NCBI RefSeq assembly: GCF_916619195.1
Contig: NZ_CAKAKL010000012.1
Location: 1 to 64,000 of the forward strand
Direction of reading: 5' to 3'
DNA: 64,000 nt
Source of the DNA: Inquilinus sp. Marseille-Q2685
Lineage (GTDB): Bacteria; Pseudomonadota; Alphaproteobacteria; DSM-16000; Inquilinaceae
Both the position numbers and the translations under genes were made by a program. Below the pieces are notes generated by a model. The model made no database searches, was not told where the DNA came from, and worked only from the letters and a program-made list of their open reading frames with translations. Below, piece after piece: positions 1-11,194 of the stretch; position 1 is the stretch's first letter; each line of letters begins with the position of its first letter.

Positions 1-247
1 AGGCGGCGCCGAGGCCGAGCGCCTGGATCTTGTCCTCCAGCAGCCGCTTGACCGACTGGTCCAGCGACCGCTGCACCTCGCGGATGCACACCGCCCGGGT
101 CGGCGTCTCGAAGCAGCGCCGCACCAGAAGCTCGGCGAAGACATGCGACTTGCCCGAGCCGCGCCCGCCATGCAGCGCCTTGTAGCGCGACGGTTTCGCC
201 AGGCGCTTGAACTTGCGCGGCAGCCTGAGCGGCGGCGGGACGGGCAT
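1..247 (-). CDS. Phage terminase large subunit, N-terminal part (runs off the left edge)
   Basis: This is the ATPase/nuclease motor that packages phage DNA into the prohead. The 82 visible residues begin MPVPPPLRLPRKFKRLAKP and contain a Walker A motif, GGRGSGKS, at about residues 27-34. The segment AVCIREVQRSLDQSVKRLL that follows is typical of PBSX-type (Terminase_3) large subunits. The reading frame leaves the window without a stop. It is open and in the same frame as the small-subunit gene upstream, with no stop codon between them, so this ATG may be internal to a fused ORF. A purine-rich stretch (gagggtgaggggg) lies more than 15 nt upstream, too far to be a good ribosome binding site. 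It marks the edge of a prophage or phage remnant whose head genes should lie to the left. Confidence 0.85.
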   Translation of the reverse strand, partial: MPVPPPLRLPRKFKRLAKPSRYKALHGGRGSGKSHVFAELLVRRCFETPTRAVCIREVQRSLDQSVKRLLEDKIQALGLGAA

Positions 248-742
248 CGGCGCCGGCGGCGCGATCCCCCTCACCCTCCCGCCGGCGTCGCCGCCGGGCC
301 CCTCCCTCTCCCCCAGGAGAGGGCCTTCGGAGCGCGCCCGGCCCTGGGAGGGTGAGGGGGCGGCCCCTCCTCCCCACCGCCAGCTATCGATCCCATGATG
401 GTGGCGGAATTCCCCGAACGCCTGCTCCAGGCTGGGCGTGGCAGCGATGGAGCGGCGGGTGACGGCGCCCCGGCTCAGGACCCGCGCGGCCGCCCTGGTC
501 AGCTTGCGCCTGACGGCGGGGACTGGCGGGATTCCCTTGCGCCGCCGCAACTCGACCTCCTCGAAGCAGGCGACCAGGATCTCGGCCCTGGCCAGCAGGC
601 GGGTGCCTCGGGCGCGGACATTGGCCTCCGCATAGCCGACCTCGGCGGCGGCGAGGCTGGCATTGCCGTGCTGGACGAAGCGTTGGGCGAACAGCCGCTC
701 ATCCGCCTGGACCTCCACGGCCCAGGCGACGTCCTCCTCCAT
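248..742 (-). CDS. Phage terminase small subunit, in frame with the large subunit
   Basis: This is the DNA-recognition subunit of the phage packaging terminase. The protein starts MEEDVAWAVEVQADERLF. The core RFVQHGNASLAAAEVGYAEA, followed by GTRLLARAEI, matches the helix-turn-helix region of the Terminase_2 family (about residues 14-50). A basic stretch follows (VRRKLTRAAARVLSRGAVTRR). No stop codon occurs: the frame continues through a low-complexity linker encoded by a palindromic repeat (266-360) into the large-subunit ATG at 247. The normal arrangement is two separate genes, so the fusion is unusual. It could be a decayed prophage, a tolerated insertion that removed the original stop, or a translational fusion. 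The start was chosen as the ATG immediately before the conserved region; no clear ribosome binding site was found. Confidence 0.75.
266..360. repeat. Palindromic CCCTCACCCTCCC repeat inside the terminase frame
   Basis: The element starts CCCCCTCACCCTCCC and ends with the exact reverse complement GGGAGGGTGAGGGGG. A CTCTCCCCC...GGAGAGGG pair lies in the middle, so the whole can fold into a long hairpin. A related 131-bp copy lies between two genes at 11064-11194. Here the element is read through in frame by the terminase ORF. Confidence 0.75.
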
Positions 743-924
743 TCCGGCCTCCCATGAAAAGGCCCGCCGCGGCGGGGCCGGGCGGGCGGTCACAACTCTT
801 CGACTGTGCCTGAATTATGCGGAGCGACGCGGCATCGTGTCAAGAACAAATGCAGAACAAAAGCTGCGACCCAGCCTCTGAACCGTCATGGCGAGCCCCG
901 GAAGTGCGTATCCATAGGCTGCGG

Positions 925-2711: not shown

Positions 2712-3389
2712 ATGGCTCGGTTGGCGCGGGCGGTGTTTCCGGGGCTTCCCCACCACGTCACCCAGCGCGGCAACGGGCGGGCGCAGACCTTCTTCTGCGA
2801 CGCGGATTACGCGCTCTACCGCGACCTGCTCGCCACCCACTGCGCGGCGGCGGAGGTCGAGGTCTGGTCCTGGGTGCTGATGCCGAACCATGTCCATCTG
2901 GTCCTGGTGCCAGGCGATCCGGACGGCCTCCGCCGGGCGCTGGCGCCGGTGCACCGGTACTATGCCGGCCACATCCATCTCCGGCTCGGGCGCAGCGGCC
3001 ATTTCTGGCAGGGGCGCTTCGGCTGCGTCGCGATGGACGAGGAGCATCTCGGGGCGGCGCTGCGCTACGTCGCGCTCAATCCGGTGCGGGCCGGGCTGGT
3101 GCAGCGGGCGGCGGACTGGCCCTGGTCCAGCGCGCCGGTCCATCTGGGCCGGATCCCGGCGGACGGCCTGACCGCGGTGGAGCCGGTGCTGTCGCGCTAT
3201 CCCGACTTCGCCGCGGTCCTGGCCGCCGGTGAGGACGATGCGGCGTCGACCCGGCTGCGTCGGGCCGAGCGGATCGGCCGGCCGGTCGGCAGCCGCGACT
3301 TCCTCGACCGGCTCGAACGCGAGAGCGGCCGGCCTCTCGCTCCGGCCAGACGCGGGCGGAGGCCCGCTAAAAGTGCACTGTCACCGTAA
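2712..3389 (+). CDS. REP-associated tyrosine transposase (RAYT, TnpA_REP)
   Basis: This 225-aa protein belongs to the Y1-transposase/IS200-like HUH nuclease superfamily. It has the opening GLPHHVTQRGN, the HUH motif in MPNHVHLVL (His60 and His62) and the helix LRYVALNPVRAGLV carrying the presumed catalytic Tyr119. Length and the FWQGRFG segment fit the RAYT subgroup, which act on REP sequences as single-copy, domesticated transposases. REPs of one type flank the gene on both sides. Its stop codon TAA (3387-3389) lies inside an inverted REP copy, and the last residues (SALSP) are encoded by that REP. The ATG follows GGAGGGG by 4-5 nt. The gene and its REPs together form a REPtron-like unit. 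Confidence 0.92.
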   Translation: MARLARAVFPGLPHHVTQRGNGRAQTFFCDADYALYRDLLATHCAAAEVEVWSWVLMPNHVHLVLVPGDPDGLRRALAPVHRYYAGHIHLRLGRSGHFWQGRFGCVAMDEEHLGAALRYVALNPVRAGLVQRAADWPWSSAPVHLGRIPADGLTAVEPVLSRYPDFAAVLAAGEDDAASTRLRRAERIGRPVGSRDFLDRLERESGRPLAPARRGRRPAKSALSP

Positions 3390-11063: not shown

Positions 11064-11194
11064 CCCCCTCACCCTCCCGGCCCAAGCGGGCCGGGCCCCT
11101 CCCTCTCCCCGAGGAGAGGGGATTTCGGAGCAGCGCTTCCTTCACCTCTCCTTGGGGAGAGGTCGAAATCGCGCAGCGATTTCGGGTGAGGGGG
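11064..11194. repeat. Palindromic CCCTCACCCTCCC repeat, intergenic copy
   Basis: The element starts CCCCCTCACCCTCCC and ends GGGTGAGGGGG. Inner pairs are CTCTCCCCGAGGAGAGGGG, CCTCTCCTTGGGGAGAGG and AAATCGCGCAGCGATTT, giving a multi-stem structure. It sits between convergent genes (GNAT and TrmH) and may serve as a bidirectional terminator. It is related to the element at 266-360. Confidence 0.8.

Follow-up and report, generated by a model that had tools for sequence, protein, structure and literature searches.

In Inquilinus sp. Marseille-Q2685, the small (TerS) and large (TerL) subunits of a phage-type terminase are encoded in a single open frame, and this fusion is very probably native, representing the normal state of the gene family, with the 95-bp palindromic repeat that lies between the two domains being a later passenger. 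The window, i.e. the whole 64,000-nucleotide stretch of DNA analyzed here, begins with the first base of the assembly contig (C12, NZ_CAKAKL010000012.1), so that just ~70 TerL residues are visible and the 3' part of this copy lies off the contig. The minus-strand frame runs from the ATG at 742 down to position 2 without a stop, with stops present in the other two minus frames, and comprises the following features.

2 to 742, minus strand: fused terminase gene TerS–linker–TerL, 3' part missing at the contig end (open frame, Pfam and PHROG domains, full-length fused homologues)
383 to 742, minus strand: TerS (small-subunit, DNA-recognition) domain, residues 1–120 (Terminase_2 at 15–84; all-helical domain in the homologue model)
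266 to 360, no strand assigned: palindromic repeat, 95 bp, of a genus-wide intergenic family, coding for linker residues 128–159 (fold, pattern search, orthologue comparison)
2 to 217, minus strand: N-terminal part of the TerL motor domain, residues 176–247 (Terminase_3, phrog_3717, identity to copy G000:C4)
146 to 169, minus strand: Walker A motif GGRGSGKS of TerL, inside 2 to 217

The openness of this frame is by itself little proof of a gene because an equally long frame persists in 75 of 1000 dinucleotide shuffles (7.5%; the DNA is GC-rich), and the gene status rests on homology. The Pfam search (hmmscan) with the single frame detects Terminase_2, the small subunit, at residues 15–84 (E = 1.3e-5) and Terminase_3, the large subunit, at residues 186–244 (E = 5.6e-9), and PHROGs yields the same TerS/TerL pair, the TerL part being phrog_3717. 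The first-pass annotation, which had read one frame from the ATG through the palindrome into the Walker A region of TerL and off the contig edge, is confirmed by the frame check and the domain matches and, for the in-frame placement of the palindrome, by its coordinates, folding and translation. The window copy carries the Terminase_3 domain and the Walker A motif of a terminase, with the start of the ATPase alone visible, and neither in this copy nor in its relatives are the subunits separate genes.

Phage terminase subunits TerS and TerL are normally two proteins. At least 13 Inquilinus homologues that lack the palindrome are single-frame TerS–linker–TerL genes of ~510–600 amino acids, namely:

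G000: C4, C6, C11 and C2
G001: C66, C69, C3 and C42
G003: C2 and C7
G005: C438, C1 and C101

The palindrome-coded peptide is absent from the aligned linkers of all 13 of these fused genes, and by Pfam the full-length relatives match Terminase_3 and Terminase_3C, together with Terminase_2 for the small subunit. Among viral sequences, the IMG/VR contigs L085 and L086 begin with a fused gene (518 and 534 amino acids) in which Pfam recognizes both domains, and the remaining viral relatives examined mostly have TerL on its own; of the matching database entries, 1946 from phages and 88 from plasmids, none covered as much as 80% of the fused protein. Xanthomonas phage PBR31 and MW202867, the nearest relatives among deposited phages, encode TerL separately, just 3' of a small gene or overlapping it, and so does a Rhodovastum plasmid, which suggests that separate genes are likely to be the ancestral state and that the fusion was derived in a narrow clade without involvement of the repeat. 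The first-pass annotation had the repeat fuse two formerly separate genes and expected homologues to reveal the original stop between them. This reading of the window copy, in which insertion of the palindrome removed the stop, takes some appeal from the position of the repeat exactly between the domains but is extremely unlikely and was rejected, given that repeat-free fused homologues abound across the genus and occur in viral contigs; no such stop came to light, the palindrome-free homologues compared being single-frame fusions.

It is also very unlikely that the assembly is chimeric, with the TerS of one copy joined to the TerL of G000:C4 at the contig end. Window positions 1–262, the last 262 bp of the visible gene, are indeed 97% identical to that intact copy and the contig stops inside TerL, but an independent assembly (G005:C131) joins the same TerS type through the linker to TerL, G002:C613 has TerS, repeat and linker, and homogenization of TerL within genomes is general.

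The PBSX/Sf6-type phage terminases (Terminase_2 plus Terminase_3/3C) share the TerL motor and nuclease folds and the TerS family with the Inquilinus proteins but are encoded by separate adjacent or overlapping genes, whereas the Inquilinus enzymes are single polypeptides that mostly stand alone. In the ColabFold model of a repeat-free homologue, a confidently predicted helical N-terminal domain is followed by a linker (residues 114–125, pLDDT <50) and a confidently predicted TerL domain, the fold of which matches Sf6 gp2. The acidic catalytic residues of TerL are invariant across the relatives, and the small-subunit assignment is backed by the Terminase_2 match and the helical N-terminal domain, for which DNA binding is predicted. 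The insertion of the palindrome falls in the linker equivalent to the disordered one of the model. The fusion fixes the subunit ratio of the packaging motor at 1:1 in cis, so that cooperation between TerS and TerL would become directly testable. In a limited literature search, no description of a fused terminase was found; the parts are known, and the combination of fusion, stand-alone location, multiple copies and an SOS-type promoter was not found described.

The palindrome occupies exactly positions 266–360 and folds far better than shuffled sequences (z = -3.5). Each Inquilinus genome contains 10 to 48 matches to the strict pattern CCCCTCACCCTCCC...CCTCTCC, the reversed control contains none, and related copies are more numerous. 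A relative of the repeat had been noticed at 11064 in the first pass; it is real and intergenic:

11064 to 11194, no strand assigned: intergenic copy from the superfamily to which the palindromic repeat belongs

In a sample of 28 repeat copies from the genome, which is not a random one, 24 are clearly intergenic, three straddle the boundary of a predicted frame, and the window copy is the sole one located between two recognized domains. G002:C613, which comes from a second Inquilinus species and is the closest relative by the TerS part, has this repeat at the corresponding place in its linker, where it is longer by 42 bp (14 codons), the window version being equivalent to this one minus 42 bp of internal sequence, with the frame kept. 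In a third species, the same linker (G005:C131) contains an apparent eroded member of the repeat superfamily. The shared linker site places the entry of the repeat into the window-copy lineage, as one event or several, ahead of the separation of at least two species, and the 42-bp in-frame length difference arose after that entry. All three of these copies are cut by contig ends, and a complete repeat-bearing gene was not seen among them. The repeat shows that a palindrome normally found between genes can persist in frame inside a protein linker in more than one species.

Coding genes of Rickettsia harbor palindromic elements in frame and apparently tolerate them (PMC10969869). The likeness to these elements proposed in the first pass holds for the mechanism, i.e. 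a tolerated in-frame insertion of a palindrome in a protein-coding gene, and fails for the habit, the Inquilinus family being overwhelmingly intergenic, with a single clear intragenic case in the sample rather than a large share of copies in frame in genes. In being dispersed, palindromic and intergenic, with tens of strict-pattern copies per genome, the Inquilinus repeat resembles REP/MITE-type elements, but no mobilizing transposase was tied to it in this analysis. A Y1_Tnp (RAYT-like) transposase gene lies nearby, at window positions 2712–3389; a related gene immediately precedes the terminase in G002:C613, and one is also found close to the terminase in G001:C66. Repeated 'NSVTVH' translations around 2712–3389 suggest that this gene has its own flanking repeats.

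Upstream of the fused gene, the window copy has a compact control region:

844 to 858, minus strand: GTTC-N7-GTTC box of the alphaproteobacterial LexA/SOS type, abutting the -35 element (invariant in 27 of 27 copies)
838 to 843, minus strand: -35 element TTGACA (promoter alignment)
814 to 819, minus strand: -10 element CATAAT, spacer of 18 (promoter alignment)
757 to 787, minus strand: leader hairpin and T-run, terminator- or attenuator-like, between the promoter and the terS start (conserved in most promoter copies)

Across the 27 aligned promoter copies, located upstream of terS or of other cluster genes, the box overlaps or abuts a TTGAC -35 element that is followed by a CATAAT-like -10 element, and most of the copies have a GC-rich hairpin and then T residues before the start codon. 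These leader hairpins fold at -24.7 to -27 kcal/mol (z from -2.5 to -3.2), and attenuation, late-gene antitermination or a short leader RNA are possible roles. The SOS operator of Caulobacter is GTTCN7GTTC (PMC9578287), the very direct repeat that is present at the terminase promoter. Upstream of the genome's own lexA and recA, the exact GTTC-N7-GTTC is absent, one-sided or degenerate versions being found there; the GAACAAAA half-site is common to the terminase box and to the DNA upstream of both genes. With the half-site shared and the exact direct repeat not, control of the terminase copies by LexA is likely rather than shown. Just upstream of the promoter, at window positions 879–915, lies a second dispersed repeat of ~37 bp with more than 100 matches in the genus.

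According to gene prediction and Pfam, most of the terminase copies stand alone and are directly adjoined by host genes (AraC regulator, MsrA, NIPSNAP, CMD, ion channel, ABC binding protein, ParE). The neighbors of the window copy encode a CGNR zinc-finger regulator, an alpha/beta hydrolase, the Y1 transposase, a GST and an AraC regulator, and no further phage gene was recognized among the listed frames of the window, with Pfam run on the nearest ones. The homology limits of the stand-alone unit are the promoter and the stop codon, which fits functional conservation and not the ends of a mobile element. When the joined flanks of C11 were used as the query for an empty site, the flanks were found apart in other species and in no case contiguous.

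Typically, one terminase copy per genome heads a phage structural cluster (G000:C2, G001:C3, G005:C403), and the same promoters precede both the cluster terminase and the cluster portal gene. The clusters of G000:C2 and G001:C3 encode portal, protease, major head, tail, tape measure, tail fibre and endolysin proteins; host genes lie on both sides, and neither integrase nor replication genes were found among the part of the cluster's genes that was scanned. The clusters of G000:C2 (L032/L072) and G003:C7 (L036) share the flank on one side, that of G001:C3 being different. In G003:C7, the cluster is eroded and largely deleted, with the fused terminase still intact.

The two halves of the fused gene evolve differently. 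By the Nei–Gojobori method, the dN/dS ratio in 12 pairs is 0.14–0.56 for the TerL part and 0.41–1.35 for the TerS part, strong codon bias being a potential source of distortion for both; as judged from these ratios, TerL is shown to be under purifying selection. TerS is fast-evolving and locus-specific, copies from one chromosomal locus in different species falling together in its tree, and in the TerL tree several copies group by genome; the combination suggests that the paralogues are probably older than the species and that their motor halves were homogenized within genomes. The single copy G001:C66 has on one side the sequence that lies upstream of the window copy and on the other side the sequence that lies downstream of G000:C4, an arrangement consistent with recombination between copies. 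The TerS versions of locus 3 (C11, G005:C1, G005:C101) look degenerate.

These patterns bear on the question of whether the stand-alone copies function at all. They could all, including the window copy, be non-functional prophage relics, in which nothing but gene conversion from the cluster-heading copy preserves an open TerL frame. The clustering of TerL sequences largely by genome, TerS dN/dS values near 1 in many pairs, the truncation of G004:C451 and C466, the breakage of other copies by Mu-like phages and the erosion of the structural cluster in G003:C7 all agree with decay, and gene conversion could preserve the TerL frame even where a copy is not itself under selection. However, every length change in TerS and the linker, across 14 copies, keeps the frame into TerL, the SOS-type box is invariant in the 27 promoter copies, the TerL catalytic residues are retained, and locus-specific TerS lineages are common to several species, which leaves decay a serious but less probable alternative. 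On balance, a packaging function of the stand-alone copies seems the better supposition from the sequences, and we read them as SOS-controlled packaging enzymes that possibly serve a shared capsid. Stand-alone terminases with an SOS-type promoter that were long kept in host genomes are not the standard prophage remnant and are a candidate part of a gene-transfer system.

If the copies do package DNA, the sequence of events might be the following. DNA damage would release LexA and allow transcription of the terminase gene, the helical N-terminal domain would select the DNA, the flexible linker would hand it over in cis, within one and the same polypeptide, to the ATPase/nuclease motor, and this motor would dock on the portal of capsids made from the resident structural cluster. 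The linker would tolerate ~32 extra Gly/Pro/Arg-rich residues, hence the view of the repeat as a passenger. The sequence itself shows the fused architecture, the place of the repeat in the linker, the common promoter and the purifying selection on TerL, and the SOS induction, the delivery of DNA in cis, the use of the cluster capsid and the neutrality of the repeat are what we infer.

RcGTA and other alphaproteobacterial gene transfer agents (GTAs) likewise consist of phage-derived packaging genes kept in hosts, with a core cluster and ectopic loci (PMC6854486). An unlikely but explicit possibility is a GTA-like system in which one SOS-induced, integrase-free capsid cluster is served by several terminases whose TerS domains differ and initiate host-DNA packaging at separate sites on the chromosome. 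Such a system would account for the same promoter on the stand-alone terminases, the cluster terminase and the portal genes, for the host genes that flank a cluster with no integrase or replication gene among those scanned, and for a fast-evolving TerS next to a conserved TerL, and ectopic loci have a precedent in RcGTA (PMC6854486). Against it, the structural cluster is eroded in one species, and a TerS domain is present, whereas TerS of the RcGTA type reportedly has no N-terminal DNA-binding domain (PMC6854486); the candidate GTA genes of Inquilinus further differ from RcGTA in the fusion, the LexA-type promoter and the several copies. Quite improbable, and speculative, is the fullest version, a multi-terminase gene-transfer system in which scattered SOS-induced single-chain terminases, each with its own fast-evolving TerS and a shared gene-converted motor, would package host DNA from several starts into one capsid, with Mu-like phages attacking terL specifically.

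All four detected copies of a Mu-like phage (MuA homologue P0003) lie inside the terL part of a fused terminase, within ~30 bp:

G005:C403: L053/L054
G005:C396: L055–L057
G003:C32: L058–L060
G002:C14: L061

The phage is ~45 kb in G003:C32 and G005:C396 and a degenerate ~16 kb in G005:C403, and two of the copies have 5-bp target duplications (GCATC and GCAGG). No further matches to P0003 were found in the six genomes. With TATAGGGGGGTGATC taken as the Mu-like end, extra matches at conserved sequence elsewhere, which had one constant flank and were not in terL, were set aside. Insertion of Mu-like phages is normally widespread, so the clustering looks like targeting of terL. The window contig ends a few residues short of the terL stretch that is hit in the other genomes, and the window copy might therefore be interrupted too.

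Members of the Inquilinus fused-terminase family are also carried by the records NZ_VCCH02000089.1 (L046) and NZ_VCCH02000057.1 (L048), titled 'Mycobacterium sp. KBS0706'; these appear to match the Inquilinus genome G005, and the record name is therefore probably wrong.
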